Below are positions 6,445 to 30,448 of a stretch of DNA of 33,266 bases, one piece after another. The stretch's first letter is position 1. Every line of letters starts with the position of its first letter. The notes beneath the pieces were generated by a model. The model searched no databases. It was not told the origin of the DNA and saw only the letters and a program-made list of their open reading frames with translations. Source of the stretch: Eggerthellaceae bacterium (lineage in GTDB: Bacteria; Actinomycetota; Coriobacteriia; Coriobacteriales; Eggerthellaceae); NCBI GenBank assembly GCA_022792415.1, contig JAAWAY010000145.1:1-33266 (forward strand), in the 5' to 3' direction. A program made the translations under genes and the position numbers.

Positions 6445-6585
6445 TGAAAGAGGAAGCGGCCCGCATGGTCAAACCATGCGGGCCGCTTCACGCTCCAACC
6501 AAGCGATGCCCTGTCCCCTCCAAAAACAGGACCCCTCAGACGGAGCTCTGAGAGTCGAAGCAAAGTGCGCTTCTCGTAAGTTCGA
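6445..6585 (-). ncRNA. Candidate leftward small RNA
   Basis: A well-formed promoter on the minus strand (-35 TTGGTA, 17-bp spacer, -10 TATACT; 6592-6620) points left into a 140-nt non-coding stretch ending at a 17-bp hairpin (6453-6489). On the minus strand the hairpin is followed by CTCTTTC, a weak T-rich end. The predicted transcript can fold several more short hairpins: GAAGC/GCTTC, CTCAGA/TCTGAG and CCTGT/ACAGG. No start codon with a ribosome site is obvious inside. It matches no RNA family I recognise, and it would run tail-to-tail with recR. Confidence 0.4.
6453..6489. terminator. Perfect 17-bp hairpin after recR (possible bidirectional terminator)
   Basis: GAAGCGGCCCGCATGGT (6453-6469), loop CAA, then the exact complement (6473-6489). 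There is no T run on the plus side, but a T-rich CTCTTTC follows on the minus side, so it would serve the leftward candidate RNA better than recR. Confidence 0.6.
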
Positions 6586-10330: not shown

Positions 10331-10365
10331 GCGAATGCCGCGGGCGTGGGGCCCGCGGCATTCGC
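10331..10365 (+). terminator. Intercistronic hairpin between lipoprotein and permease genes
   Basis: GCGAATGCCGCGGGC (10331-10345) pairs perfectly with 10351-10365 around a 5-nt loop. There is no T run, so it more likely blocks 3' decay or attenuates partially than terminates fully. The placement fits the usual need for more binding protein than permease. Confidence 0.6.
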
Positions 10366-16228: not shown

Positions 16229-16260
16229 GAGGGCCGACGGCAGCCATGCCGTCGGCCCTC
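16229..16260 (+). terminator. Second hairpin after the HtrA gene
   Basis: GAGGGCCGACGGCA (16229-16242) pairs perfectly with 16247-16260 around GCCA. The 14-bp stem is very stable but lacks a T run; tandem hairpins without T runs are common in this window. Confidence 0.55.
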
Positions 16261-16381
16261 GTGCGTGCGGGCCCTTCTCGCCGCTCGTCGTGTGCGGCGA
16301 GCCGCCGGTCGGGGAGGGGTCGGCGGAGAGATACGGATAATTCGTTAGTAGTGCGCGGGCTAGGTGACGACTGCGCCTGTG

Positions 16382-16390
16382 TGGTACCAT
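16382..16390 (+). promoter_or_regulatory. Candidate extended -10 promoter (TGG-TACCAT) of the polysaccharide operon
   Basis: TGG followed by TACCAT resembles the extended -10 form used before the mob and ABC operons. GATAAT at 16336-16341 is an alternative. Either would give a leader of 250 nt or more before the first NusG-like gene. Confidence 0.35.
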
Positions 16391-16396
16391 GCTCAC

Positions 16397-16649
16397 TTGA
16401 ACTAATGGGCGCCTCCGCCTGGGAGGCGCGATCCACGGACAGGTGAGGATAGGTCGAGGTTTGGCCCAGCCGCTTCTGACATATGCCGCAAAACCGCTCG
16501 GGGGGGGGCGGTCACTTCAAGGTGACCCCGACGGCCTCCTCGTAGCCGACGCACCGGCATCCCGCGGCTCGCTGCGAGCCGGGGCGCCTCGCATCCGCCG
16601 CGTCGTCCGCGGCGCCATCCAACCAGGTGAACAACTGCATACTACGCGC
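16397..16649 (+). promoter_or_regulatory. Structured 5' leader of the polysaccharide operon
   Basis: About 250 nt with three perfect hairpins: GCGCCTCC/GGAGGCGC (16409-16429), GGTCAC/GTGACC (16510-16527, preceded by eight G) and CGGCTCG/CGAGCCG (16565-16581). Operons controlled by RfaH- or LoaP-type NusG paralogues carry such recruitment hairpins in their leaders, so one of these may be the loading site for the encoded factor. An open frame crosses this leader in phase with the next gene, but it has no ribosome site or family-like sequence, so I treat it as untranslated. Confidence 0.4.
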
Positions 16650-17201
16650 GTGCCCTTGGCGCGCTATGTCGTGCGCGTGGCTGCCTCCCAGGAGGATGCG
16701 GCCGCGGCGCGCATTCGTGCGCTCGGCGGCGATGCCGTGGGCGACTGCTTCGCCCTGCGTCGGCAGATGCCGCATCGGGCCAAGGGGGAATGGGGCTACG
16801 CCGAGAGCGTGCTGTTCCCCGGGTACGCCTTTTTGGCCTGCGATGATCCCGAGCGCGTGGCGGATGTGCTGCGACGATCCACGGGCACGGCCGAGCTGCT
16901 GGTCGCGGGCGGTGCGCCGCTGGCGCTGACCGACGGCGAGGCGTCCTTCGTGAGTGACTTCGGCGGCGTCGACCACCTGGTGCGCACCTCGCGCGGGCGC
17001 ATCGAGGACGGCCGGCTGGTGGTGGAGTCGGGTCCGCTGGCGGGGCGCGAGGGCCTCGTGCGGCACCTGGACCGGCACCGCCGCGCGGCGTGGCTCGACC
17101 TGTCGCTGCTGCACGCGGGCGCCGACCGCATCGTCGACGTGCTGATGCCGGCGGACGGCCGCGGCGTGAAGGTGGGGTTGGAGGTGGTCTCCAAGAGCTG
17201 A
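16650..17201 (+). CDS. NusG-like transcription antiterminator, paralogue 1 (LoaP/UpxY/RfaH-type)
   Basis: 183 residues from GTG 16650. Two domains: an NGN domain beginning PLARYVVRVAASQED, with AESVLFPGYAFLACDDPERVADVL (the FPGY strand typical of NusG), and a C-terminal KOW-like domain with VVESGPLAGREGLVRHLDRHRRAAWLDLSLL. Specialised NusG paralogues bind RNA polymerase at the head of long operons and suppress pausing and termination. It is more diverged than paralogue 2: the usual MWYV start is replaced, and KHRRAAW-like features sit where the KOW loop is expected. The start is uncertain; no strong ribosome site precedes GTG 16650, and TTG 16656 is possible. It is the first gene of the locus and likely regulates it. 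I cannot say whether it activates or opposes paralogue 2. Confidence 0.75.
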   Translation: MPLARYVVRVAASQEDAAAARIRALGGDAVGDCFALRRQMPHRAKGEWGYAESVLFPGYAFLACDDPERVADVLRRSTGTAELLVAGGAPLALTDGEASFVSDFGGVDHLVRTSRGRIEDGRLVVESGPLAGREGLVRHLDRHRRAAWLDLSLLHAGADRIVDVLMPADGRGVKVGLEVVSKS

Positions 17202-17211
17202 CCCTCTCGTT

Positions 17212-17230
17212 CCCGCAGCTTGTTGCGGGG
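17212..17230 (+). repeat. Short hairpin competing with the 17-bp inverted repeat
   Basis: CCCGCA (17212-17217) pairs with TGCGGG (17225-17230) around GCTTTGT. The 3' arm is also the beginning of the left arm of the long inverted repeat, so the two pairings are mutually exclusive in RNA. Confidence 0.5.
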
Positions 17231-17357
17231 AGATCGAGCGGGCGCCGCCACCTCGCCGACGCCCCTCCACTGTCCACGCCCCGTCCGCTCGGACAATGCG
17301 CCTGGCAGATGAGGACCCCGATGCGTCGCGTCCGGCCTCTCGCTCGATCTCCCCGCA
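17225..17357. repeat. Perfect 17-bp inverted repeat flanking 99 bp upstream of NusG paralogue 2
   Basis: TGCGGGGAGATCGAGCG at 17225-17241 is the exact reverse complement of 17341-17357. It lies in the 334-bp gap between the two NusG-like genes. The 99-bp interior is GC-rich, with no clear gene and no two-box promoter in either direction. The rest of the gap (17358-17535) has an AT-richer spot near 17368-17390 and then a GC-rich leader to the ribosome site GGGAGGGGAG. The repeat could be a DNA inversion site or the stem of a long RNA structure. Confidence 0.8.
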
Positions 17358-17535
17358 GGAAACTGCACCGATATTCCGTTGCGTAAAGCGAGGCCGCGTT
17401 CGGCAGTCGTACAAGCGCGGAAGGGGAATAGCAGCGTCGCGGCCGGGGCAGGCGCCCCGCGTGGCGAAGCCGTGGCCGGCCCGGAAGGCGCCAGCCCGCG
17501 GCGGAGCCGTGTCGCGACGAGGGGAGGGGAGCGCC

Positions 17536-18048
17536 ATGTGGTACGTCATCCAGGTGAGCACCGGCCGCGAGCAGGCTGCGTGCGACCTCATCGAGCAGCA
17601 TGTGGACGGCTCCCTGTTCGCGGAGTGCTTCGTGCCGCGCCGCACGGTGGCCTTCCAGGTGGGCGACGGGTGGGACACCACCACCGAGCCTTTGTTCCCA
17701 GGCTACGTGATAGTGGACACGGCGCACCCCCGGCGGCTGCACAGCCGGCTGGCGGCCCTGCCCGACTTCCTGAGGCTGCTCGACGTGGACGGCGACTTCC
17801 TGCCGCTCAACGACGACGAGGTGGCGTGGATCGACGGGTTCACGAAGCGCGGCCATCGCGTGGTGGACATGAGCCGCGCCGTGGTGGAGGGCGGCATCGT
17901 CCGCATCATGGACGGCCCGCTGGTGGGTCGCGAGGCCCAGGTGAAGCGCATCAACCGCCGCAAGCGGCGCGCCATCCTGGAGCTGAGCATCCTCGGCCGC
18001 ACGGTGGAGGTACCCATGGGCCTTGAGGTGGTGCGCAAGCCGCGGTAG
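17536..18048 (+). CDS. NusG-like transcription antiterminator, paralogue 2 (LoaP/UpxY/RfaH-type)
   Basis: 170 residues. MWYVIQVSTGREQAACDLIEQ is the canonical NGN start of LoaP/UpxY-type factors; ECFVPRRT and EPLFPGYVIVDTAHPRRL follow. The C-terminal KOW domain has VVEGGIVRIMDGPLVGREAQVKRINRRKRRAILELSILG, a good match to the family. The length equals other specialised NusG proteins. These travel with RNA polymerase and let it read through long exopolysaccharide operons; the following 14 kb of co-directional genes are the obvious target. ATG 17536 follows GGGAGGGGAG. The long structured gap before it may hold its own control element. Core NusG is expected elsewhere, beside secE and rplK, so this is not the housekeeping copy. 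Confidence 0.88.
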   Translation: MWYVIQVSTGREQAACDLIEQHVDGSLFAECFVPRRTVAFQVGDGWDTTTEPLFPGYVIVDTAHPRRLHSRLAALPDFLRLLDVDGDFLPLNDDEVAWIDGFTKRGHRVVDMSRAVVEGGIVRIMDGPLVGREAQVKRINRRKRRAILELSILGRTVEVPMGLEVVRKPR

Positions 18049-18141: not shown

Positions 18142-18909
18142 GTGCTTGACAACGAGATAGACTACCGGCCCGAAGCCGACGCCGACGAGCGCTCCGCGCA
18201 CGGCGGGGAGGATACGTCCGCCCAGGTGACGGCGCGCTTTGTCGACGGGTGCTTCGTCGCACCCCCGCCGGACCCGACTGCCGCCGCCCCGCGCAAGGGT
18301 GGCCGTCCCTACCTCATTGCCAAGCGCGTCTTCGATATCGTGTTCTCCGCCGTCGTCTGCGTGATCCTCGCCATTCCGGTGCTGGTCACGTGTATCGCCA
18401 TCGCCATCGACTCCCCGGGCAAGCCCTTCTTCCGGCAGGAGCGCGTGGGGCAGAACGGAAAGACCATCCGCATCTTCAAGCTGCGCACCATGGTGCCGGA
18501 CGCCCACGAGGCGCCCGAGCGCTACATGACGCCCGAGCAGCTGGAGGTGTGGCGCCGCGAGCAGAAGCTCGACGACGACCCGCGCGTGACGAGGGTGGGC
18601 CGCCTGCTGCGCCGCACGTCGCTGGACGAGGTGCCCCAGTTTCTCAACGTGCTGGCGGGCGACCTGTCCGTCATCGGCCCGCGGCCGGTGACGATCGAGG
18701 AGACCTACGAGTTCGGCAACGCGCGCGACGAGATCCTCGCCTGCAAGCCCGGCATCACGGGCTGGTGGCAGGTGACCGCCCGCAACGACGCCACCTGGGC
18801 CGACGGCGAGCGCCAGCTGCTCGAGCTGTTCTACGTGCGCCATGCGAGCCTGCCGCTGGACGTGCGCGTGTTCGTGCGGACGTTCAAGGCCATGTCGAGG
18901 GGGCAGTAA
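18142..18909 (+). CDS. Polyprenyl-phosphate sugar-1-phosphate transferase (bacterial sugar transferase family)
   Basis: 255 residues. Enzymes of this family (WcaJ/WbaP C-terminal type, PglC) move a sugar 1-phosphate from a UDP-sugar to undecaprenyl phosphate and so start a repeat unit at the inner membrane. A disordered N-terminus of about 55 residues precedes KRVFDIVFSA and one hydrophobic segment (about 65-88). Then come QERVGQNGKTIRIFKLRTM, RRTSLDEVPQFLNVLAGDLSVIGPRP and PGITGWWQV, the full set of family blocks. GTG 18142 is used since no ATG is available; the ribosome site is weak. The sugar is unknown. The high GC matches the chromosome, in contrast to the genes that follow, so the transferred cassette probably begins after it. 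Confidence 0.92.
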   Translation: MLDNEIDYRPEADADERSAHGGEDTSAQVTARFVDGCFVAPPPDPTAAAPRKGGRPYLIAKRVFDIVFSAVVCVILAIPVLVTCIAIAIDSPGKPFFRQERVGQNGKTIRIFKLRTMVPDAHEAPERYMTPEQLEVWRREQKLDDDPRVTRVGRLLRRTSLDEVPQFLNVLAGDLSVIGPRPVTIEETYEFGNARDEILACKPGITGWWQVTARNDATWADGERQLLELFYVRHASLPLDVRVFVRTFKAMSRGQ

Positions 18910-18910
18910 C

Positions 18911-19678
18911 GTGGGAGCCGAAGCGAAAATACTCGTTGCCTCGCATAAGCCCTACTGGATGCCCGATGATCCCCTTTACCTGCCAATCCAAGTGGGTGCT
19001 GCTGGAAAAGAGTCTATTCCCGGATTCCAGAGAGATGACGAAGGCGACAACATCAGCGAAAAGAACCCCAGTTACTGCGAGCTCACTGCGCTCTATTGGG
19101 CATGGAAAAACCTCGATGCTGACTATATTGGGCTTGCTCATTATCGTAGGCATTTCGCCGGGTCGGGTGGGCGCGGAATTCTTTCCGGCAATGAGACGTG
19201 TGCCTTGCTCGAACATGCGCCCGTCGTGCTGCCCAAGAAAAGAAGGTACTATATCGAGACTGTGGGATCTCATTACGGCCATACCTTCGATCCTCATCAC
19301 TTGGACGTTGTTCGAACGGTTCTCGCAGAGCATGATCGGGCTGCGCTTTCCTTCTTCGATAGACACCTCGACCGAAGGGGCGGCCATATTTGGAACATGT
19401 CCATCATGCGCGCGGATGTCTTGGATGCCTGGTGCTCCTGGCTCTTCCCTCTGCTGGGAGACATTGAGGAAGAAATAGACCTCGAGGGGCTTTCCGACTT
19501 TGAGCGGCGCGTCATGGGCCGTCTATCGGAGCGGCTCCTTGATCCCTGGCTCGAATGCCGTGGAGTCGATTACGTTGAGCAGCCGGTAGTCTCGCTGGAA
19601 AAAGTCGATTGGATTAAGAAAGGATCTTCCTTCCTAGCGGCGAAGTTTCTTGGAAAGAAATACGAGAAGAGCTTCTGA
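18911..19678 (+). CDS. DUF4422 family capsular glycosyltransferase-like protein
   Basis: 255 residues. DUF4422 proteins occur in capsule and exopolysaccharide clusters and are believed to be glycosyltransferases. The family opening is clear: KILVASHKPYWMPDDPLYLPIQVG, then DDEGDNISEKNPSYCELTALYWAWKN, YIGLAHYRRHF, and FDRHLDRRGGHIWNMSIMRADVLDAWCSWLFPLL. The GTG start at 18911 follows GAGGGGG inside the end of the previous gene, one base after its stop. Codon use turns visibly AT-richer from here, a sign of transfer. The stop shares its A with the next ATG (TGATG), so translation is coupled. Confidence 0.88.
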   Translation: MGAEAKILVASHKPYWMPDDPLYLPIQVGAAGKESIPGFQRDDEGDNISEKNPSYCELTALYWAWKNLDADYIGLAHYRRHFAGSGGRGILSGNETCALLEHAPVVLPKKRRYYIETVGSHYGHTFDPHHLDVVRTVLAEHDRAALSFFDRHLDRRGGHIWNMSIMRADVLDAWCSWLFPLLGDIEEEIDLEGLSDFERRVMGRLSERLLDPWLECRGVDYVEQPVVSLEKVDWIKKGSSFLAAKFLGKKYEKSF

Positions 19679-20805
19679 TGGCGGCAAAGAAGAGGATTCT
19701 CTTTTACTCGGAAGGGTGGGGTACCGGTGGTATCGAGGCATTCGTTATGAATGCAATCCGCTGCCTTGATCCCGACAAGTTCGAATTCGAGATCTTCTGC
19801 ACCCACGACTACGACGATGGGTACGATGAGGAGATCAGCCGTCGGGGAGGTATCCGGCATGTGCTGTATAATAACCATAAGCCCGGCCTGGTAAAGAGGC
19901 AGATTGAAGGTACGCGGGAGTGGGAGAGGCTGCTTCGCTCTGGATCTTTTGATGTAGTTCATATCAACACAATGAATGGAATGGGCTTTCATTATGCGTG
20001 GATTGCGGAACAATGCGGTATACCCATTCGGATTGTTCATTCCCACAATACCGCGTTTGGCCCTGGGTCCAAGTTGGTGAAAACGATGGCCCACAGGGTC
20101 GGAATACTCCTTTTTGGATCGAGCGCAACGATCCAGCTCGCTTGTTCGAATGATGCTGGAAGATACTTATTCGGAGAAAAAGAGTTTTCCGTTGTCCCCA
20201 ACGCTATTGACCTTAGTCGGTTTATGTTCGATGGCGAGGGAAGGGCTCGCATTCGGACGGACTTAGGCGTCCCGGAGGGCGATCTGGTGGTCGGATTTGT
20301 GGGACGGCTCGAACCGTCAAAGAATCCTCTCTTTGTGCTAGAGGTCTTTCGCCAGCTCCTTGCACAAGAACCGACTGCCTCCTTGGTGCTTATCGGGCAA
20401 GGATCCCTCGAAAACGAGGTCTCGGCCTGGTTGGAGGAACATCCTAACTCCTCCTCGTCTGTCATTCGAGTAGAGCGCACAAACGAGATGGCATCTTTTC
20501 TCTCGTCTTTCGACGCTCTTTGCGCGCCATCTCTCTATGAGGGCAATCCCGTCGTGTTGCTCGAGGCTCAGGCGAGTGGTCTTCCTGTCATCGCTTCCGA
20601 TTCAATCAGCGAGGAGTCTTGTATTACCGATCGGGTTGAGTTTTTACCTCTTTCTGCCTCCTTGGAACAATGGGGGGACGCCATGAGGGAATTAGCGAAT
20701 CGAAAAGGCGATAGGGAGACGTATGCCTCGATAGTGAACGAAAGCGGATTCGGCTTGGCTCGGTTGGCGGAAGCGCTTGCAACTTTTTATGAGCTAAAGG
20801 GTTGA
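19678..20805 (+). CDS. Glycosyltransferase, GT4 family
   Basis: 375 residues, GT-B fold. The N-terminal domain has EGWGTGGIEAFVMNAIRCLD, the Gly-rich acceptor loop, and HINTMNGMGFHYAWIAEQ. The C-terminal domain starts near VVPNAIDLSRF and includes VGFVGRLEPSKNPLFVLEVF and the nucleotide-sugar motif LYEGNPVVLLEAQASGLPVIAS, with the EX7E pair. It would add a sugar to the lipid-linked repeat unit on the cytoplasmic face. Donor and acceptor cannot be read. It overlaps the preceding gene by one base and ends one base before the next start. Confidence 0.93.
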   Translation: MAAKKRILFYSEGWGTGGIEAFVMNAIRCLDPDKFEFEIFCTHDYDDGYDEEISRRGGIRHVLYNNHKPGLVKRQIEGTREWERLLRSGSFDVVHINTMNGMGFHYAWIAEQCGIPIRIVHSHNTAFGPGSKLVKTMAHRVGILLFGSSATIQLACSNDAGRYLFGEKEFSVVPNAIDLSRFMFDGEGRARIRTDLGVPEGDLVVGFVGRLEPSKNPLFVLEVFRQLLAQEPTASLVLIGQGSLENEVSAWLEEHPNSSSSVIRVERTNEMASFLSSFDALCAPSLYEGNPVVLLEAQASGLPVIASDSISEESCITDRVEFLPLSASLEQWGDAMRELANRKGDRETYASIVNESGFGLARLAEALATFYELKG

Positions 20806-20806
20806 A

Positions 20807-21955
20807 TTGGGCATCAAGGATTTAATTAAATCTGTTCCGGCTCAGAATGGAAAACTCAACTATGGGTTTTACCGTCATCTTAGTCGAGGGCGTAATGAGT
20901 TTGAAAGCATCTTGGATTGGGCTCGCGGTATCGACTCCATTGACGACGTGAGAGAGCTTAAGGCATTCCGTGCTGAAGTTGAGGCAGGAAGGCGTTTCTA
21001 TACCACAGATGCCAACTGGTCAAATTCCCTTATCTATGGAATCTGGAATGCACTTTTCGGTGAGGTTTCAGATATGCCGTTATATCGCATGCCGGCAGTT
21101 GAACATGGTCTGATTTTTCCTGCCCAGCAATTTACGGATACCCTTTATACAGCGCGGCCTACCTTGGCGACATTTGGGGATTATCGTCGAAATATTCTCC
21201 GCGCGAAAACAGATAAACCTATTTTCGCAGTAGGGCCCTATATCTCTTACGCGACCCCCTATTACGATTGCGAAAGGCTTGCCGAAATGCGCAGGAAAAA
21301 CGGGCGGACTCTCCTCGTCTTCCCGGCGCATGGAACCGATGAATCTGCTGTAACGCGAGAGCAGGATATATATTTCTCTAAGATCAAAGAGATAGCTGCG
21401 GCTTTTGATACGGTCATCGTCAATGCTTTCTGGTGGAACATCAATGACCCCTTTATTGAAAAACTGGCTGCTGAGGGTTTTCACATTTCCTCGGCAGGCT
21501 TTCGCGATGATGTGTGCTTCCTGTCGAGACTACGAACGCTAATTGAGCTATCGGACCTGGTTGTGGGAGATGATGTCGGGACTCATGTGGGGTATACGCT
21601 CGCCCTGGGTGTGCCCTACTGTCTGCTGCCGTCAGGGACGAAGGTCGAGCCTTCTGGAGACGTTGCAACCGAAGAGGTCGCGCGAATCGAGCAGGAGCAG
21701 CGCAAAATAGGCGCTCCGTTTGTCGGTTCAACTGAAATCAGAGCCAACCAAATAGAGATCTGTGAGCCTTTCTGGGGGTTCTCCTATTTGCGATCCCGTG
21801 AAGAGTTGCGGGCCATGGGAGAGATTTCAGCGCACATTGGAATGATGAGCCGTGATTGGGGCTCAAGAATTGCCTCCGCTGCGACATGCGCGCTTGCTGA
21901 GTATGAAAGCTATGACCCCCTGAAATACTCGTTGTTGGCTGAGGCGCTCACCTGA
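20807..21955 (+). CDS. Unrecognised polysaccharide-locus protein, possible GT-B glycosyltransferase
   Basis: 382 residues, soluble. I do not recognise the family. The N-terminal third is helical and polar. The centre has KPIFAVGPYISYATPYYDCERL and LLVFPAHGTDESAVTREQDIYFSKIKEI, like the interdomain region of GT-B enzymes. Later ELSDLVVGDDVGTHVGYTLALGVPYCLLPSG resembles the donor-site loop of sialyltransferase-like or CDP-glycerol transferase-like proteins, where a lone Asp/Gly pair and a Thr-His contact the nucleotide. The locus makes CMP-pseudaminic acid, and no other obvious transferase for it is present, so this is the best candidate for that role (inference only). TTG at 20807 behind AAAGGG is taken as the start. 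It overlaps the next gene by one base (TGATG). Confidence 0.6.
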   Translation: MGIKDLIKSVPAQNGKLNYGFYRHLSRGRNEFESILDWARGIDSIDDVRELKAFRAEVEAGRRFYTTDANWSNSLIYGIWNALFGEVSDMPLYRMPAVEHGLIFPAQQFTDTLYTARPTLATFGDYRRNILRAKTDKPIFAVGPYISYATPYYDCERLAEMRRKNGRTLLVFPAHGTDESAVTREQDIYFSKIKEIAAAFDTVIVNAFWWNINDPFIEKLAAEGFHISSAGFRDDVCFLSRLRTLIELSDLVVGDDVGTHVGYTLALGVPYCLLPSGTKVEPSGDVATEEVARIEQEQRKIGAPFVGSTEIRANQIEICEPFWGFSYLRSREELRAMGEISAHIGMMSRDWGSRIASAATCALAEYESYDPLKYSLLAEALT

Positions 21956-23391
21956 TGCATAGCGCTGCCCGTGCCTCTCGTGGGGAGGCGATAGGATTGG
22001 GGGCAAGAATCTTCCCCAGCAAGATGAGCCCCCAGCTTATTGTTTGTCTGACGGGATTCGCGTTACTCGTTTGCTGCGTGGCAAGCGAGGTAAAGCTCTC
22101 GGGTTTCGTAGCGCTGGCGGCGTTGATCGCATTCACCCTCTACGCGATCAACGAGCAGCGGGAGTTTCTTTTCATTTACACGGCTCTGCTATTCGCGGTG
22201 TTTGCAAATATCGCAGGGTGCGCGGTGGCGGAGTATTTCCCTATATATCTGTCTGAAATAAGGATTGACTCGTCTTTCGCGGGATCTTTACCCTCTCTCG
22301 TTTTCGCGAGATGGTTTTTTCTCGCAGCGTTGTTTTGCTTTGGCTGTCGAGGATTGCCAAAGGTTGAGGAGGCGTGCTGGGGCAAGGGATGGATAGAAAG
22401 ATTGATAACCGTGGGCGTGTTTCTCGCCCTGGTTGCTATGTTTCTTGTGACCATTCGAAACCCGCCTTCCTTTTTGGTGGGAATGGATCGCTTTGCCTAC
22501 GCCAGCGCCTACCAGGGAGCGCCCATTCAAAGAATGCTCACCAACGCAATGCCATACCTCACGTTTTTGATCGTTGCGGCTACACGGTGGGGAATGAAGC
22601 CGATCGGTTGGCTTGGCGTCGTCATGTGGGGTGTTGTACTCATATGGACAGGAACCAAGTTCGGCGGCTTTTTTAATCTCGCATGCGCTTTCCTCGTTGT
22701 GTATAGCGATCGCCTCGCGCGTATGGGAAAGCATGCTGTCAGAAAGTTCTCAATAATTCTCGGGATACTTCTCGCAGCGCTCGTTGCCTTTTCTGCGGTT
22801 ATGTACGGGAGTTATGGGGCGGCTTCGGGGTCGGATTTTCTTTTTGCCCGCACCGCTCAGCAGGGTCAAATCTGGTGGGCAACCTACGAAAAAACTGACG
22901 GGCTCCTTCATCTTGATCGCGTGGAAAGTGAACTTCTTGGCACTATAAAGGACGGAGGCACGATAGCCGCAAACGTTGGGTCTGGCCATGGCATATACGG
23001 CATGATGTACCTCAATGCGCCGACAGATTTAATTGATGGCAAGCTCAGGCAGGGCTCTCGCTATACCGAGGGGGGCTATGCGGCGGCTTACTATTCAGGT
23101 GGGGTGCTGGGGGCGCTCTCCTTCAGCCTCCTGATGGCGGGTGCTTTTTTCTTGGTCATCCGGAGATTGCGCATCGCGTTATGGAGGGGCAAGGCCGTCG
23201 AAATCATCATACTGGCACGTTTCTTTATCATTCTCCAAACAACCTTGTCAATGGGAACCTTTGCAGACCTAATAGATCCACTATCGCTTGCTAGCTACGC
23301 ATACCTGGCTTTTGCGTGGCTTACGGATAGGGGCGTGGCCCCCGAAGTCTCCCTTAGAAGTCGTCTCCTGTGGAGAAGCGATGCCTGCTAG
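21955..23391 (+). CDS. Wzy-like oligosaccharide repeat-unit polymerase
   Basis: 478 residues with ten or more membrane segments and a large outer loop (about residues 285-360), the topology of O-antigen/capsule polymerases. Such proteins have little sequence identity; assignment rests on topology, position beside a flippase, and short patterns such as IWTGTKFGGFFNLACAFLVVYS and the loop GQIWWATYEKTDGLLHLDRV with GGYAAAYYSGGVLGA. It would join lipid-linked repeat units on the outer face of the membrane. The ATG overlaps the preceding stop by one base; the end overlaps the flippase start by 11 nt. The AT-rich codon use matches its neighbours. Confidence 0.78.
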   Translation: MHSAARASRGEAIGLGARIFPSKMSPQLIVCLTGFALLVCCVASEVKLSGFVALAALIAFTLYAINEQREFLFIYTALLFAVFANIAGCAVAEYFPIYLSEIRIDSSFAGSLPSLVFARWFFLAALFCFGCRGLPKVEEACWGKGWIERLITVGVFLALVAMFLVTIRNPPSFLVGMDRFAYASAYQGAPIQRMLTNAMPYLTFLIVAATRWGMKPIGWLGVVMWGVVLIWTGTKFGGFFNLACAFLVVYSDRLARMGKHAVRKFSIILGILLAALVAFSAVMYGSYGAASGSDFLFARTAQQGQIWWATYEKTDGLLHLDRVESELLGTIKDGGTIAANVGSGHGIYGMMYLNAPTDLIDGKLRQGSRYTEGGYAAAYYSGGVLGALSFSLLMAGAFFLVIRRLRIALWRGKAVEIIILARFFIILQTTLSMGTFADLIDPLSLASYAYLAFAWLTDRGVAPEVSLRSRLLWRSDAC

Positions 23392-24784
23392 ACAGCTGGG
23401 AGAAAACAAGATGGCTCTGTTTAATATCTTAAGCACCGCCATCGTTTCCGGAATAAACTTCATCACAATTCCCGTGTTCACTCGCATGCTCGATACGTCT
23501 GGGTTTGGTTTGATAAACGTGTATACCGCTTGGGTGCAGGTGGGTACGATTTTCGTCGGACTTCAGGCGAATGGGTCAATTGCGAGTGCGCGGGCGAATT
23601 TGCCGGAAAGCGAGCAGGGCTCGTACCAGATCAGCGTTCTCGTTATGTCGCTTATCCCCTTTTCAGTGATCCTCGGTCTCGCTGTTTTACTGATTCAACC
23701 GCTTTCGAGTCTTCTTCTCATGCCTCCGCCGTTGATCATTTGCGCTGTTCTGCAGAGTTTCGGCGCCTTTGTCGTCTCGCTGTTCTCTATGCGCTATATC
23801 TTCCGTAAGCAGGCGCAGCTCAACCTCTTGATCTCCGTAGGTCTCTGTGTTGTCACCACGCTCCTTTCCGTTGTGCTCATCCTATTCGTCTTCTCTGACG
23901 CGGAGTCTGCGTTTTACGGTAGAGCTTACGGGCTGATGCTGCCGAATCTCGTGCTCGGCATAGCCCTCTTCGCCTCCCTTGTTTTTTCCGGTAACGCGCG
24001 AGTGCGTGTAGCCTATTGGCGATTTTGCCTCGGACTCACTTTGCCGCTTATCTTTCACGCTCTTTCGCAAATTGTTTTGGCGCAGACGGGAAAACTCGCT
24101 ATTCAGCAGTTCTCCGGAGATTCAGCTGCTGGCGTGTACAGCATTGCGGTGGTAGTGGTGAGTCTCATGGCGGCCATTTACAGCGCCCTCAATAACGCGT
24201 TCGTTCCTTTCATGTATGACGATTTATCTGGGAAGACGGGCGAAGGGGTGAAGCAAGATCACTTCCGAAACTACATGCGCTTGTTTACGGTAGGATCACT
24301 GGCCTTTATGCTGCTATCTCCGGAAGTTCTGAAGCTGATGTCGCCGGAGAGCTACTGGACCGCAACATCTCTTTTACCACCTCTGATTGTGGGTCAATAC
24401 TGCGTGTTCCTTTATAGCTTTCCCGTCAATTATGAGTTCTTCAAGATGAAAACGGGCTCAATCGCACTAGGTACGCTACTCGCTGCGGCGTTGAATATCG
24501 TTCTAACGCTGATGCTCATTCCCGTCTTCGGCATGATGGGAGCAGCCTTCGCAACGATGGTCGCCTATCTTTTCCTCTTTCTCTTTCATTTCTCTATAGC
24601 CCGGTTTTGGCTTGGGGATCGAAATTATCCGAGTCGCTATCTCTTTGGTGGATTGGCCGTGGTCGTCCTTGCAGCAGCGGGGTGCTACGCGCTTGGGAGT
24701 CTGCTGGCTGTACGCTGGGCAATCGGCGTTGTGTTGCTCGTCTATGCGGGCGCACGAGTAGTTCGCACAAGACAGATTTTCTAG
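23381..24784 (+). CDS. Wzx-like polysaccharide flippase
   Basis: 467 residues, about 14 membrane segments, MATE/PST superfamily. It would move the undecaprenyl-linked repeat unit across the membrane. The N-terminus NILSTAIVSGINFITIPVFTRML with DTSGFGLINVYTAWVQ is the standard opening of Wzx proteins, and VYSIAVVVVSLMAAIYSALNNAFVPFMY lies mid-protein. Two starts are possible: ATG 23381 (GGAG at 23372, overlapping wzy by 11 nt) and ATG 23411 (GGGAG at 23398); the second has better spacing and would give 457 residues. It is the last of the AT-richer cassette; a 110-bp gap follows. Confidence 0.9.
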   Translation: MPARQLGENKMALFNILSTAIVSGINFITIPVFTRMLDTSGFGLINVYTAWVQVGTIFVGLQANGSIASARANLPESEQGSYQISVLVMSLIPFSVILGLAVLLIQPLSSLLLMPPPLIICAVLQSFGAFVVSLFSMRYIFRKQAQLNLLISVGLCVVTTLLSVVLILFVFSDAESAFYGRAYGLMLPNLVLGIALFASLVFSGNARVRVAYWRFCLGLTLPLIFHALSQIVLAQTGKLAIQQFSGDSAAGVYSIAVVVVSLMAAIYSALNNAFVPFMYDDLSGKTGEGVKQDHFRNYMRLFTVGSLAFMLLSPEVLKLMSPESYWTATSLLPPLIVGQYCVFLYSFPVNYEFFKMKTGSIALGTLLAAALNIVLTLMLIPVFGMMGAAFATMVAYLFLFLFHFSIARFWLGDRNYPSRYLFGGLAVVVLAAAGCYALGSLLAVRWAIGVVLLVYAGARVVRTRQIF

Positions 24785-24791
24785 AAGGAAC

Positions 24792-24797
24792 TTGACG
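24792..24797 (+). promoter_or_regulatory. Candidate -35 (TTGACG) upstream of the pse genes
   Basis: TTGACG is a good -35 match in the only gap above 100 bp inside the biosynthetic part of the locus, but the hexamer 17 bp downstream (TCATGA) is a poor -10. An internal promoter for the pse genes is possible, not shown. Confidence 0.2.
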
Positions 24798-24894
24798 CGA
24801 GCGGGTCCGACAAATCATGAGGCTAAGTCAGTTAGAACCTGACCGGCCGTTTGATGGATAGAGTTGTTTGTGTACCTTGAGAAAGGAATAAGGA

Positions 24895-25917
24895 ATGCTT
24901 AATGGCAAAACCGTCCTTGTGACGGGAGGAACCGGATCGTTTGGCAATGCGTTCACGCAGTACGTGCTCGAGCACTACGATCCGAAGAAGATCATCATCT
25001 ACTCGCGCGACGAGTACAAGCAGTTCGTCATGCGCAACAAGTTCATCGAGCTCGGCAAAGAGGCCGGCAAGGACTACGACTCGAAGCTGCGGTACTTCAT
25101 CGGAGACATGCGGGATGAGGCTCGGCTGCGTCGCGCCCTCGTGGGCGTTGACTACGTTATTCATGCGGCGGCGCTGAAGCAGGTGCCCGCCTGCGAGTAC
25201 AATCCGATGGAGGCCGTTAAGACCAACATCGACGGTGCCATGAACCTGGTCAACGCGGCGCTCGACTCTGGCGTCCAGAAGGTCGTCGCCCTGTCTACGG
25301 ACAAGGCCGTCAATCCCGTGAACCTCTACGGCGGCACGAAGCTCGTCTCGGACAAGCTCTTCATCGCGGCGAACGCCTATCGCGGTCAGTCGGGTACGGT
25401 GTTCTCCGTCGTCCGCTATGGCAATGTCGCCGGATCGCGCGGCTCGATCATCCCGTTTTTCGACAACCTCATCAAGGGCGGGGCAACGGAGCTGCCCATC
25501 ACGGACTTCCGCATGTCGCGCTTCTGGATCTCGCTCGATGAGGGCATTCAGCTGGTGGTGAAGGCTCTCGAGGAGGCTCAAGGCGGCGAGACCTTCATCT
25601 CCAAGATTCCCTCGTTCATGGTGACCGATCTGGCCACGGCGATGGCGCCGAACGCCAAGCAGATCGAGGTAGGCATCCGTGAGGGCGAGAAGCTCTCCGA
25701 GTGCATGGTGCCTGCCGCCGACAGCATGACCACCTATGAGTACGAGAAGAACTACATCATCTTCCCGCACATGGAGTGGTGCGACCTCTCTTCTGTCGAC
25801 CTTGCGGGAGGAAAGAAGGTCGAACAGGGCTTCGTCTACGACTCTGCCACCAATACCGAGTGGCTCACGGTCGAGCAGCTGCGTGAGCTCGTGTCCAAGA
25901 TGACCATCAAATACTAA
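24895..25917 (+). CDS. pseB: UDP-N-acetylglucosamine 4,6-dehydratase (inverting), PseB
   Basis: 340 residues, cytoplasmic short-chain dehydrogenase-type enzyme. PseB dehydrates and 5-epimerises UDP-GlcNAc, the first step to pseudaminic acid. The NAD(P) motif TGGTGSFG is at 10-17. The active site reads LSTDKAVNPVNLYGGTK, with Asp136, Lys137, Tyr145 and Lys149, the PseB form of the YxxxK site. Typical PseB blocks also include IHAAALKQVPACEYNPMEAVKTN, VRYGNVAGSRGSIIPFF and TDFRMSRFWISLDEG. GC content rises again from this gene onward. AAGGAATAAGG before the ATG provides the ribosome site. It begins six consecutive pathway genes. Confidence 0.95.
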   Translation: MLNGKTVLVTGGTGSFGNAFTQYVLEHYDPKKIIIYSRDEYKQFVMRNKFIELGKEAGKDYDSKLRYFIGDMRDEARLRRALVGVDYVIHAAALKQVPACEYNPMEAVKTNIDGAMNLVNAALDSGVQKVVALSTDKAVNPVNLYGGTKLVSDKLFIAANAYRGQSGTVFSVVRYGNVAGSRGSIIPFFDNLIKGGATELPITDFRMSRFWISLDEGIQLVVKALEEAQGGETFISKIPSFMVTDLATAMAPNAKQIEVGIREGEKLSECMVPAADSMTTYEYEKNYIIFPHMEWCDLSSVDLAGGKKVEQGFVYDSATNTEWLTVEQLRELVSKMTIKY

Positions 25918-25928
25918 GGCGGGATGCT

Positions 25929-27152
25929 ATGGAATTGGCAATCAACGGCGGTTCGCCCGCGAGCGCACGATATCTGGGGTACGGCCACCAGGATGTGTCC
26001 GACGAAGACATCCAGGCGGTCGTCGATTGCCTGAAGAGCGACTACCTCACGTGCGGCCCCGCGACGGCTGCCTTCGAGGAGGCTCTCAGGGACGTGACGG
26101 GCGCCCGGTTTGTGACTGCCGTGGCTAATGGCACCGCCGCCCTGCACGTTGCCTGCCTAGCGGCGGGCATCGGGCCGGGTGATGAGGTGATCGTCTCGCC
26201 CATCACGTTCGCAGCGTCGGCCAACTGTGTGCGTTACTGCGGAGGAACTCCCGTGTTCGCCGATATCGACCCGCTGACCTGGAACGTGTCCCCGTCCTCG
26301 ATCCGCGAGAAGGTGACCCCTCGGACCCGTGCCGTGGTGGCGGTTGACTTCGGAGGGGTGCACGTCGACTCTGAGGCCATACGTGCCATCTGCGATGAGC
26401 ACGGCCTCGTGTTCATCGAGGATGCGGCGCATTCCCTGGGCACGTCTCGCGGGGGTGTACCGGTGGGGTCTATCGCCGATATCACTACGTTCAGCTTCCA
26501 TCCGGTGAAGACCGTCACTACCGGAGAGGGCGGTGCCGTCACCACCAACGACCCGGAGCTCGCCCGGCTCATCGAGCTCTACGCGAAGCATGGCATCACC
26601 CGACGCCCCGATCTGCTGCGCAATGCAGATGAGGGTGGCTGGTACTACGAGCAGCTGGTGCTGGGATATAACTATCGCATCAGCGATATCGAGGCGGCGC
26701 TCGGCGTCAGCCAGGTTAAGCGTCTCCCGGAGTTCTCGGCGCGCCGTCGTGAGCTCGTCGCCTTCTACAATGAGCAGTTCGCGGATGTTCCGGAGGTGTC
26801 GTTCCAGATGGACGACACTCCTGAGGAGACAACGCGCCACCTCTACTGCCTGAAGTTCGACACCGAGGCGCTGGGCGTTTCACGCCGATTCATCTTTGAT
26901 GCCCTGAAGGCGGAGAACCTCGGCGTCAACGTTCATTACCTCCCTGTCTACCTGCTACCCTATTACCAGGATCTGGGCCACGGGAGGGGGGAGTGTCCCC
27001 ATGCAGAGGACTATTACGACCACGCGGTGACGCTGCCGCTGCACTGCGGTCTCTCTGACGAGGATGCCCAACATGTGGTCGACGCCGTCATGAAGGTAAT
27101 TGAGTGGTGCCGTGAGAATGACGCCATTGGCTCCGAGGAGGGCGGGCGATAA
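25929..27152 (+). CDS. pseC: UDP-4-amino-4,6-dideoxy-L-AltNAc aminotransferase, PseC
   Basis: 407 residues, DegT/DnrJ/EryC1/StrS aminotransferase. It uses PLP to aminate the 4-keto product of PseB. ANGTAALHVACLAAGIGPGDEVIVSP, FIEDAAHSLG (Asp165 contacts the PLP ring nitrogen) and FSFHPVKTVTTGEGGAV with Lys194, the Schiff-base lysine, are all present. YNYRISDIEAALG and VHYLPVYLLPYYQ are characteristic of the PseC branch. It follows pseB by 11 nt. The stop shares its last A with the next ATG. Confidence 0.94.
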   Translation: MELAINGGSPASARYLGYGHQDVSDEDIQAVVDCLKSDYLTCGPATAAFEEALRDVTGARFVTAVANGTAALHVACLAAGIGPGDEVIVSPITFAASANCVRYCGGTPVFADIDPLTWNVSPSSIREKVTPRTRAVVAVDFGGVHVDSEAIRAICDEHGLVFIEDAAHSLGTSRGGVPVGSIADITTFSFHPVKTVTTGEGGAVTTNDPELARLIELYAKHGITRRPDLLRNADEGGWYYEQLVLGYNYRISDIEAALGVSQVKRLPEFSARRRELVAFYNEQFADVPEVSFQMDDTPEETTRHLYCLKFDTEALGVSRRFIFDALKAENLGVNVHYLPVYLLPYYQDLGHGRGECPHAEDYYDHAVTLPLHCGLSDEDAQHVVDAVMKVIEWCRENDAIGSEEGGR

Positions 27153-27856
27153 TGCCCGCGCCGCTCTGCGTTATCACGGCCCGCGGAGGGTCGAAGCGGA
27201 TTCCTCGGAAGAACATCAAGGGTTTCTGCGGAAAGCCGATTCTCGCGTATTCGATTGATGCCGCGCTCGAAAGTGGCCTCTTCGATGAGGTTATGGTGTC
27301 AACCGATGACGACGAGATCGCCGAGGTGGCCCGGGCCCTTGGCGCCTCGATTCCCTTCATGAGAAGCGCGGCGTCCAGCGATGACTTCGCCACGACACGC
27401 GATGTGCTGTTGGAAGTACTGGATGCGTATGAAGGACTGGGCCGCCTGTACGAGGGGGTATGCTGCCTCTATCCGACCGCGCCGTTCGTGACGGCAGCCA
27501 AGCTGAGGGCTGCCCAGGCCGCCTTCGTGGAGGGCGCCGATACGGTTCTATCCGTTGTTCGCTTCTCGTTCCCTCCGCAGCGAGCGCTCATCCAGGTAGG
27601 CGAGGGCTTGTCGTTTTGGCAGCCAGAGCACGAGAACACGCGTAGCCAAGACCTGGATCCCCTCTACCATGATGCAGGGCAGTTCTACTTCTGCCGTACG
27701 GCGTCTTTAAGGGAGAGCGGATCCCTTCTCGGCCCCGTTACCTTGGGGTATGAGGTTCCCGAGACCGAAGTCCAAGACATAGACAATCCTATCGACTGGT
27801 CGTTGGCGGAAATGAAGTACGAGAGGATGGTGGCCAAAGATGGGCAAGCTGGCTGA
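27152..27856 (+). CDS. pseF: CMP-pseudaminic acid synthetase (cytidylyltransferase), PseF
   Basis: 234 residues. It activates pseudaminic acid with CTP, the last pathway step. The CTP-binding signature ITARGGSKRIPRKNIKGFCGKPILAYSI opens the protein. VMVSTDDDEIAEVARALGA, LYPTAPF and DAGQFYFCR follow, the family order for CMP-nonulosonate synthetases of the PseF group. The gene sits before pseI rather than at the end of the pathway order. It overlaps pseC by one base and pseI by 17 nt, so expression is tightly coupled. Confidence 0.92.
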   Translation: MPAPLCVITARGGSKRIPRKNIKGFCGKPILAYSIDAALESGLFDEVMVSTDDDEIAEVARALGASIPFMRSAASSDDFATTRDVLLEVLDAYEGLGRLYEGVCCLYPTAPFVTAAKLRAAQAAFVEGADTVLSVVRFSFPPQRALIQVGEGLSFWQPEHENTRSQDLDPLYHDAGQFYFCRTASLRESGSLLGPVTLGYEVPETEVQDIDNPIDWSLAEMKYERMVAKDGQAG

Positions 27857-28874
27857 CAGGATAGCCGAAGGCGGAGTGTACTTCATCGCCGAGATGAGCG
27901 CCAACCACGGTAATGACCTGGGCCTTGCGCTCGACATCGTCGATGCTGCAGCTCAGGCGGGCGCCGACTGCCTTAAGGTGCAGACGTATACGGCCGACAC
28001 GCTCACGCTCGATTGCGACAATGACTATTTCAAGATAACGGGCGGCCTGTGGGACGGCATGCGCCTGTATGACCTGTACTCAGACGCTTCGATGCCGTGG
28101 GAGTGGCATGTCCCGATAAAAGAGCGATGTGACGAGCTGGGTCTCGACTTCCTCTCCACTCCCTTCGACAAGTCGGCAGTCGACCTTCTTGACGACTTGG
28201 GAGTCGATGCCTTCAAGATTGCCTCTTTCGAGCTTGTGGACATCCCTCTCATCGAATACGCCGCCTCGAAGGGCAAGACGATGATCCTCTCGACAGGCAT
28301 GGGGTCTCTCGAGGATATTGAAGACGCCGTGAATGCTATGCGGTCGGTGGGAAACGAGGATTTCTATCTGCTGCGCTGCTGCAGCGAGTACCCGGCAAAT
28401 CCCGCCGACATGAATCTCGCGAGCATTTCCGACATGGCACGGCGCTTTGATGCGCGCGTGGGGTTCTCGGACCATTCGATGGGACACGTCGCCGATGTGG
28501 TCGCCGCCGTTCTCGGCGCCCGGATCGTCGAGAAGCACTTCTGCTTGGATCGGAGCATCGAGACGGCCGACTCGAAGTTCTCCATGACGCCCGCTGAGTT
28601 CCGCGCCATGGTGGATGCGGTTAACGAGGCGGTCTCTGCCGTTGGCGCGCCGTGCTACGTTCCCTCAGAGAAAGAGGCGGCGAGCCTCGTGTTCAGGCGG
28701 TCTATCTTCGCCTCGGCCGATATTGCGGAAGGGGAGGTGCTTACCCCCGACAACATCCGGGTAGTGCGGCCGGGATACGGGGCGAAGCCGAAGTACTATG
28801 AATCGCTGCTGGGCACTGCCTCTTCGAGGGTATACGCATTCGGCGAACCGATTCAATTCGAGGAGTTAGATTGA
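27840..28874 (+). CDS. pseI: Pseudaminic acid synthase, PseI
   Basis: 344 residues. PseI condenses 2,4-diacetamido-2,4,6-trideoxy-L-altrose with phosphoenolpyruvate. The TIM-barrel NeuB domain runs from FIAEMSANHGNDLGLALDIV to about 270. GGLWDGMRLYDLYSDASMPWEWH is the block that marks PseI rather than NeuB or LegI. DFLSTPFDKSAVDLLDDLGVDAFKIAS, RCCSEYPANPADMNL, GFSDHSMG and VEKHFCLDRS complete it. A C-terminal SAF (antifreeze-like) domain follows from about 280 (RRSIFASADIAEGEVLTPDNIRVVRPGYG). Overlap with pseF is 17 nt; the stop overlaps the TTG start of the next gene. Confidence 0.95.
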   Translation: MGKLADRIAEGGVYFIAEMSANHGNDLGLALDIVDAAAQAGADCLKVQTYTADTLTLDCDNDYFKITGGLWDGMRLYDLYSDASMPWEWHVPIKERCDELGLDFLSTPFDKSAVDLLDDLGVDAFKIASFELVDIPLIEYAASKGKTMILSTGMGSLEDIEDAVNAMRSVGNEDFYLLRCCSEYPANPADMNLASISDMARRFDARVGFSDHSMGHVADVVAAVLGARIVEKHFCLDRSIETADSKFSMTPAEFRAMVDAVNEAVSAVGAPCYVPSEKEAASLVFRRSIFASADIAEGEVLTPDNIRVVRPGYGAKPKYYESLLGTASSRVYAFGEPIQFEELD

Positions 28875-29374
28875 TCGCAAAAGACCACGTTTTCGCTTCG
28901 GAGAGGCTCAGGTATCGCGGTATCGCACGGAGTGATGCTGACAGGATAGTGGCATGGCGCAGCAGGCCGGAAAACTATCGCACTTTCTTCAACGCTCGTC
29001 CCATTACCCTGCCCGAGCATCTTAGGTGGTACGAAACCTATCTGCATGATGATACGCGGATCGATTTCATGATTATTGATGCAGAGGGCAATCCCATCGG
29101 AACGGCCGGATTGTCGAACATCAACGGAAAGTCCTGTGAAGTCTCCTACATGATTGGCGATGAGTCCTCGCGAGGCAAGGGGTTCGCAAAGGAGGCTCTC
29201 AGGGCAATGTGCGAGCTGGCATTTGATGAGATGGGCGTGGAGGAAGTTGTTGCCCGGGTTCTGCCTTCCAATCACGCTTCTATGGGAGTGGCCCGCGGTG
29301 CGGGTTTCCTTGAGGCCGAGAGGGTATTCAGGCTTGAGTCGAGTTCTCGCTTCGGACGTGATGGACAGGCATGA
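28871..29374 (+). CDS. pseH: UDP-4-amino-sugar N-acetyltransferase, PseH
   Basis: 167 residues, GNAT fold. In the pathway PseH acetylates the 4-amino group made by PseC. The N-terminus RYRGIARSDADRIVAWRSRPENYRTFF is typical of PseH, and VSYMIGDESSRGKGFAKEALRAM carries the acetyl-CoA loop; NHASMGVARGAGF is the usual end. A TTG start at 28871 overlaps the pseI stop by four bases, and the next gene's ATG overlaps this stop by four. The specific role rests on the surrounding pse genes; the fold alone would say only GNAT. Confidence 0.9.
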   Translation: MIAKDHVFASERLRYRGIARSDADRIVAWRSRPENYRTFFNARPITLPEHLRWYETYLHDDTRIDFMIIDAEGNPIGTAGLSNINGKSCEVSYMIGDESSRGKGFAKEALRAMCELAFDEMGVEEVVARVLPSNHASMGVARGAGFLEAERVFRLESSSRFGRDGQA

Positions 29375-30438
29375 GCGTACGCTCCTCTGGGAATAGATCT
29401 ACTCCACTTCTCATAGTGCGCGCTGACGGTGGCCCGGGGATCGGGGCCGGTCACATCATGCGGTGCAAGTCGATCATCGAGGCCTTGGAAGAGCAGGGCG
29501 GCCAGGCGGTATTCGCGGTATCCGACGAGGAGTCTTTGCGGATAGTCGAGCATGTCGGATGCGAGGGCATCGTCCTCGGTGGATCGAAAATGGATCTGGG
29601 CGCTTGTGATGCGGACTTGCTGGCGGCGGAAGTGGGGCTGCGCGGGGCATCTGCGGTGCTGGTTGACACCTATGCGGCTGGAGAGGATTTTTTCCGCCGC
29701 CTGAGGCATCGCGTCGACAGTCTGCTCGCTTATATCGACGATCTGTTCCTCTTCTCGAAGGGCTTTCTTCCCGCTCCGTTGGCGTTTCCGGTTGACGTGG
29801 TTGTGAACTACGGTTTCGGCTTCTCTGATGATGATTACCGCACGCCTTATGCAGCGTCGGGTGCACGCATTCTTGCGGGACCAGGGTTCGCCCCCGTTAG
29901 CGGGAGGTTCGGGTTGCCGCGGGAGCGATGCGCAGGAGATGACGTTCGTATCCTCGTGACCAGCGGATCGACCAATCCAGACGGTGTCTTGGAGAGGATG
30001 GCCCAGGCGTGCGTGATGGGCGCTCCGGGGGCGGTCATTGATCTTGTTGTGGGTCAGAGCGCCTCAGTCACCCTCCCTGATCGTCTTCTTTCCTATTGCC
30101 GGGTACACCGAGGGGTCGCTGACTTGGCGCCGCTGATGCGGGAGGCTGACTTTGCAGTCTCTGCCGCGGGCTTTACGCTCTACGAGCTGTCCTGCATGGG
30201 TGTGCCGACGGTTGCGGTGCCCATCGTCGACAACCAGATGGGTAATGTCGCTGGATTCGCGCGGAGGGGCCTGGGCCTGACTTTCTCCGAGGTCATGCCG
30301 ACGGCCGGGGAGATTGCGGTTGCCGTGCAGAAGATGTTCGGGAATAAGGGATTAAGGGAGGAACTCGGCAGCCGCGCGCGTCAAGTGGTAGACGGCCGAG
30401 GCTCCGCGAGAATTGCCCGCGCACTTGCCCAGGGCTAG
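29371..30438 (+). CDS. pseG: UDP-2,4-diacetamido-trideoxy-altrose hydrolase, PseG
   Basis: 355 residues. PseG removes UDP before the PseI reaction. It is a GT-B-fold hydrolase related to MurG. RADGGPGIGAGHIMRC holds the catalytic His28. VDTYAAGEDFFRRL, YIDDL and VVVNYGFGFSDDDY follow, then ILVTSGSTNPDGVLERM and the C-terminal SAAGFTLYELSCMGVPTVAVPIVDNQ that contacts UDP. The order pseH-pseG is common in pse clusters. It completes the six enzymes for CMP-pseudaminic acid. The next gene begins 10 nt after the stop. Confidence 0.93.
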   Translation: MSVRSSGNRSTPLLIVRADGGPGIGAGHIMRCKSIIEALEEQGGQAVFAVSDEESLRIVEHVGCEGIVLGGSKMDLGACDADLLAAEVGLRGASAVLVDTYAAGEDFFRRLRHRVDSLLAYIDDLFLFSKGFLPAPLAFPVDVVVNYGFGFSDDDYRTPYAASGARILAGPGFAPVSGRFGLPRERCAGDDVRILVTSGSTNPDGVLERMAQACVMGAPGAVIDLVVGQSASVTLPDRLLSYCRVHRGVADLAPLMREADFAVSAAGFTLYELSCMGVPTVAVPIVDNQMGNVAGFARRGLGLTFSEVMPTAGEIAVAVQKMFGNKGLREELGSRARQVVDGRGSARIARALAQG

Positions 30439-30448
30439 AAGGCGCCGC

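Follow-up and report, generated by a model that had tools for sequence, protein, structure and literature searches.

A covarying leader RNA hairpin between tandem LoaP-type antiterminator genes, and a candidate poly-G switch, at a Coriobacteriia surface-polysaccharide operon

The inverted repeat and its locus

A perfect 17-bp inverted repeat located between two NusG-like genes of an Adlercreutzia-like genome (Eggerthellaceae) is, judging from sequence comparisons, very probably the stem of a conserved RNA element. A broader reading, considered likely when taken as a whole, assigns this conserved hairpin, termed Part A, to the leader transcribed between the genes loaP1 and loaP2, as a checkpoint or boundary that polymerase would read through with LoaP, and attributes an on/off switch to a poly-G tract in loaP1. 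The LoaP-type antiterminators of gut Coriobacteriia thus gain a defined leader RNA that can be searched for, has no Rfam entry and is tied to surface polysaccharide operons, which matter for phage resistance. The idea of DNA inversion, raised for this repeat in a first-pass annotation, is corrected, and a homopolymer in an antiterminator gene is put forward as an alternative, testable switch.

The window (the whole stretch of 33,266 nt analyzed) carried two LoaP-type NusG paralogues preceding a pseudaminic-acid polysaccharide operon, in a genome whose nearest named relatives were Adlercreutzia faecimuris and Enterorhabdus sp. P55. The genes and leader elements of this locus described below are all on the forward (+) strand. 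The first paralogue, loaP1 (16461..17201), began with a TTG codon at the position where its relatives have a conserved GTG/TTG start, start and frame being compared in six loci. It scored 98.5 bits against the LoaP model NF033641, under the cut-off of 125, and 21.6 bits against Pfam NusG, slightly under the cut-off; by these profiles, it is a divergent LoaP relative and not a certified LoaP. The second, loaP2 (17536..18048, 170 aa), was recognized as a LoaP-type antiterminator by NF033641 (146.7 bits, cut-off 125) and by the Pfam NusG and KOW domains. Surface-polysaccharide genes followed at 18142..32200, where profile matches identified glycosyltransferases, a flippase and a pseudaminic acid set (PseB/C/F/I/H/G-like), the PseH- and PseG-like matches being below cut-off. 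Upstream of loaP1, an aligned region partly conserved in four congeneric loci (16336..16390, GGATAATTCGTTAGT ... TGTGGTACCAT) is a candidate for the operon promoter, and no consensus sigma-70 site was found in it. Elsewhere in the window, a bacterial small SRP RNA gene was detected at 1877-1970 (RF00169, 59.2 bits).

The repeat sits in the 334-nt gap between the co-directional loaP1 (end 17201) and loaP2 (start 17536). Its left arm, TGCGGGGAGATCGAGCG at 17224-17240 (strand b), was the exact reverse complement of the right arm at 17341-17357 (strand c), and the spacer between them counted 100 nt (17241-17340). The first-pass annotation had given the right arm correctly, had recognized the repeat as exact with its left arm set one base too late (17225-17241), and had counted 99 bp between the arms. 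When mismatches were allowed, the arms grew to 26 nt (17215-17240 and 17341-17366, 88% complementary). Among 100 dinucleotide-based shuffles of the window, none contained perfect 17-bp arms in inverted orientation separated by 200 nt or less. The four other perfect inverted repeats of at least 14 bp in the window (14-17 bp, at 92-125, 6453-6489, 10331-10365 and 16229-16260) were all tight hairpins, probably intergenic and terminator-like; as their spacers measured 3-5 nt, the 17-bp repeat was the only one with a long spacer. A second exact copy of the arm sequence was not found in the source genome (77% complete), the closest further copy having two mismatches and lying on a different contig. 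Neither a sigma-70-like promoter nor a U-tailed terminator was found overlapping the repeat, and the interior held no consensus promoter on either strand, as had been remarked at first.

Conservation and distribution of the hairpin

Part A comprises a basal helix P0, whose 5' strand GCAG (17215..17218) pairs with 17363-17366, the long stem formed by strands b and c, and a 100-nt apical loop. Strand c is followed by a conserved GGAAA and the 3' strand of P0, CTGC (17358..17366), which by alignment form the end of a nearly invariant GCAGGAAACTGC. Homologous leaders were recognized in five congeneric loci, in which the arms differed in sequence and yet remained complementary. The nearly invariant GCAGGAAACTGC behind the right arm was used to gather 21 loci from several genera. 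A pairing-maximizing search recovered a strong stem in nearly all of them; picking the stem start by pairing favours pairing by itself, which was countered by a shuffled-upstream control, and in 18 of the 21 loci at most two of 200 shuffled controls were as good. The stem start fell directly 3' of a conserved AGCUU-like motif, which had played no part in the search.

In a gapless alignment of 19 loci with trimmed loops, 89.7% of the cells paired and double-sided changes occurred at 13 of 21 pairs. Covariation in the stem reached 0.521, against 0.184 +/- 0.020 in shuffled alignments, a control weakened by the relatedness of the sequences, and against 0.08-0.16 in slid alignments, a control that was clear. 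The compensatory base changes characteristic of a conserved structured RNA were therefore found in the stem, and both arms keep their pairing through them. The loop was conserved neither in sequence nor in length, and the spacer varied widely among the homologous leaders (about 20 other loci). The RNA alternative of the first-pass annotation gained from both the covariation in many loci and the occurrence of the same element in the leaders of neighbouring loaP genes.

Two familiar classes of element were set aside. Rfam covariance models for riboswitches and leaders gave no relevant match to the leader at gathering or relaxed thresholds, so a known riboswitch or leader family was ruled out. 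A canonical intrinsic terminator at Part A was ruled out by the missing U-tract, strand c being followed by GGAAACTGCA.

A covariance model (R1), built from loop-trimmed sequences, matched 33 of 138 genomes of the family and 42 of 398 genomes of the class. A loaP gene lay downstream on the same strand in 28 of the 30 R1 loci examined, the two exceptions being weak matches, and two further hairpin loci outside the family also had loaP. The window's own copy scored a weak 15.5 bits on account of its 100-nt loop; since R1 scores it poorly, its membership rests on direct alignment. The related hairpin of Collinsella differed at its base (CAGCTG...CAGCTG). In some loaP leaders, the downstream elements described below (Parts B and C) were present and Part A was not detected; the gap upstream of loaP was mostly longer in these, a rule that was not strict. 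At one locus, L060, Part A was replaced by a perfect hairpin of great length with TTTCGTTT behind it, resembling an intrinsic terminator.

Folding, downstream elements and proposed mechanism

Folds of the growing leader transcript, which describe equilibrium and not kinetics, paired strand a (CCCGCA, 17212..17217) with the start of the left arm (17224-17229) at P of about 0.98 until about position 17350, after which the long pairing of strands b and c took over (P 0.99). The presence of CCCGCA and its complementarity to the left arm, both noticed at first reading, were thus borne out, together with the suggested competition for this arm in the early transcript. The switch did not prove general: the long hairpin formed in 20 of 20 loci tested, and as the early pairing was strong (P at least 0.6) in only about half of them, a strict and universal exchange of the two hairpins was rejected. 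The stop codon of loaP1 lies 10 nt upstream of strand a, which a terminating loaP1 ribosome could mask.

Beyond Part A, the leader held a second conserved element, Part B (17371..17430, ATAYC...GCCGCGTT...GGGGAATA), defined by sequence conservation. Its core resembled AAATCGTCGCTTTGCCGCGTTT, a conserved core of Lachnospiraceae loaP leaders. RNAalifold found no consensus structure on a MAFFT alignment of Part B. Part C consisted of two mini-hairpins, GGCGAAGCC at 17463..17471 and GGCGGAGCC at 17500-17508, delineated by the enrichment of GGCGAAGC in loaP leaders (48 occurrences against 0.8 expected in 18.3 kb). Leaders of loaP genes from Lachnospiraceae and other Bacillota had both AAATCGTCGC..GCCGCGTTT and GGCGAAGC in common with those of Coriobacteriia. 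As far as these shared motifs indicate, this is a loaP leader signature that crosses phyla, and it has no Rfam match.

The LoaP protein of Bacillus velezensis binds and requires a leader RNA hairpin of the UNCG type, and Bacillus LoaP antagonizes NusA-dependent termination (PMC12691694). The present locus resembles the B. velezensis dfn-mln leader of that study in its LoaP-family protein, its conserved leader hairpins and its long downstream biosynthetic operon. Unlike in dfn-mln, the operon presumed to be the target here itself contains loaP, often as two genes in tandem; the long covarying hairpin is an additional element of its leader, in which no U-tailed intrinsic terminator was detected. 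Part B is the probable counterpart of the LoaP-binding hairpin, and either Part B or Part C may fill this role here.

The following course of events is proposed. As polymerase exits loaP1, the short hairpin of strands a and b would form first, to be displaced by the long hairpin of strands b and c, which would serve as a checkpoint for pausing or termination, or as a boundary. LoaP would bind the leader hairpin adjoining Part A, and polymerase would then read through the long operon.

Two other roles were considered for Part A. It might be an atypical terminator, NusA-stimulated or Rho-linked, that is overridden by LoaP loaded earlier in the operon. The action of Bacillus LoaP against NusA-dependent termination (PMC12691694), the high stability and intergenic position of the hairpin, and the hairpin with a U-rich stretch that takes the place of Part A at L060 are in line with such a role, which nevertheless appears somewhat doubtful, as Part A has no U-tract and the presumed LoaP-binding elements were found downstream of it and not upstream.

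The main rival to the checkpoint or boundary proposal is a pure intercistronic boundary hairpin, which would protect the 3' end of the preceding cistron, or keep loaP1 translation apart from the leader, and leave polymerase unregulated. In Eggerthellaceae, Part A usually starts right behind the upstream stop codon (3-60 nt past that of a co-directional gene), and its unconstrained loop and absent U-tract would suit this simple function. However, the base of the hairpin is conserved in sequence (CUU opposite GGAAACUGC) and its linkage is specific to loaP leaders, which suggests a specific role, and the related hairpin of Collinsella has no closely preceding gene. A mere boundary function is thus regarded as unlikely.

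Poly-G tract in loaP1 and the question of inversion

Poly-G contingency genes, such as those of Neisseria and Campylobacter, undergo phase variation by slipped-strand mispairing. In loaP1, a G9 homopolymer (16500..16508) spans codons 14-16 (Gly-Gly-Gly), 716 bp upstream of the inverted repeat, and was the only G or C run of at least 8 in the window. GGG made up only 19% of the glycine codons in the genes of the window, so an unbroken G homopolymer was not expected from codon use. In all six congeneric loci compared, the start codon lay exactly 13 codons ahead of the tract; with G9 the loaP1 frame ran for 246-254 codons, and with G10 it met a stop after 21 codons. Three loci had G9 and three G10, and in both genomes that held a pair of such loci, one was G9 and the other G10; these lengths come from one sequence per genome, in which homopolymer sequencing errors are possible. 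Tract length thus set the frame and varied among relatives, as in a poly-G contingency gene. Of 19 loci from several genera, 14 had G runs of at least 9 upstream of loaP1 (15 runs against 0.1 expected, about 150-fold enriched), within the coding extension in some loci and further upstream in others.

From this comparison, the tract is likely a slipped-strand on/off switch of loaP1. It resembles known poly-G contingency genes in having the homopolymer in the 5' coding end, where one base turns the frame on or off, and differs from them in its target, a NusG-family antiterminator; a partial literature search found no report of a poly-G switch in a NusG paralogue. It is rather improbable that the tract is a mere curiosity, with the true start of loaP1 downstream of it and its length irrelevant. 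In-frame GTG/TTG codons do lie just ahead of the NusG homology, and the N-terminal extension of loaP1 has no known domain, but the extension is conserved as protein, the position of the start codon relative to the tract is constant, in all six loci G9 is the only length with which the frame stays open, and the enrichment of long G runs upstream of loaP1 extends to several genera.

Slippage in the poly-G tract would turn loaP1 on or off and make the operon phase-variable through its antiterminator and not through DNA inversion. As a more speculative and somewhat unlikely extension, a two-step capsule switch common in Coriobacteriia can be envisaged, in which poly-G slippage would turn loaP1 on or off, and only with loaP1 on would polymerase get past the hairpin checkpoint, so that loaP2 and the surface-sugar operon would be expressed. 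If such a switch held true, the target of phase variation would be transcription elongation, in place of a promoter or a gene for an enzyme.

Several side observations concern homopolymers. Poly-G in the 5' coding end of loaP1 was also present at nine other loci, while four loci, L060 among them, had G9-G13 tracts further upstream, outside or ahead of the conserved coding part of loaP1, which could act on promoter spacing. In Collinsella, G-run length in the ribosome-binding region just before loaP differed (about 5, 6 and 9). The roughly 51 consecutive C residues that open one contig probably reflect a homopolymer assembly artefact.

Bacteroides UpxY loci, in which a NusG paralogue reportedly heads a surface polysaccharide operon with invertible promoters, are comparable in the position of the paralogue at the operon head and in possible phase variation. 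Unlike in these loci, inversion was not seen here at the repeat, and the candidate switch, a homopolymer, lies within the antiterminator gene. The phase variation first suggested may therefore hold by way of the loaP1 tract (G9 open, G10 truncated) and not by way of the repeat.

An invertible DNA element, with a recombinase flipping the 100 bp that the 17-bp repeats enclose, in the manner of Bacteroides capsule promoters, was recommended by the perfect repeat, its suitable size, the adjoining antiterminator gene of a polysaccharide locus and the inversions known from Eggerthella CPS loci (PMC13174815), and is now highly improbable: congeneric interiors, where alignable to each other, all had the same orientation, with no flipped copy among them; the interior had no promoter and no conservation of sequence or length; the arms changed freely in sequence and stayed complementary; the element lies between co-directional operon genes; and the published Eggerthella repeat is a different sequence. 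The window's own interior matched no congeneric interior in either orientation.

Megabase capsule (CPS) inversions of Eggerthella lenta at GATAAGCGCGGTTATG were described in a 2026 preprint (PMC13174815). In three Eggerthella genomes, one copy of GATAAGCGCGGTTATG was found 121-137 nt downstream of loaP, and opposite-orientation copies, recorded at four loci, had no adjoining loaP; from these positions, the unit of hairpin and loaP would remain in place, with capsule genes exchanging behind it. The present locus is like that of E. lenta (PMC13174815) in belonging to the same family, in its loaP-linked capsule clusters and in the inverted repeats close by, and unlike it in the position of the element, GATAAGCGCGGTTATG lying in the gene that follows loaP and the leader hairpin upstream of loaP. 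Seen alongside the Eggerthella inversions, the leader and loaP would seem to form one fixed cassette for expression, with the capsule genes behind it being exchanged or shut off.

Two candidate links to recombination were rejected. The Eggerthella repeat and the conserved block after the 17-bp repeat had ATAAGCGCGG in common by eye; as the former lies downstream of loaP, the likeness was treated as chance. A possible Adlercreutzia recombination site downstream of loaP, GACAACGAGATAGACTACC, had 1-2 copies per genome, each at a loaP-linked next-gene start as far as checked. Variants of the Eggerthella inversion repeat, such as GATAACCCGGGTTATG, occurred in Gordonibacter and Paraeggerthella. In A. 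faecimuris, a near-identical stretch was present behind two different loaP genes, and contigs ended or started there; assemblies therefore break at this repeat behind loaP.
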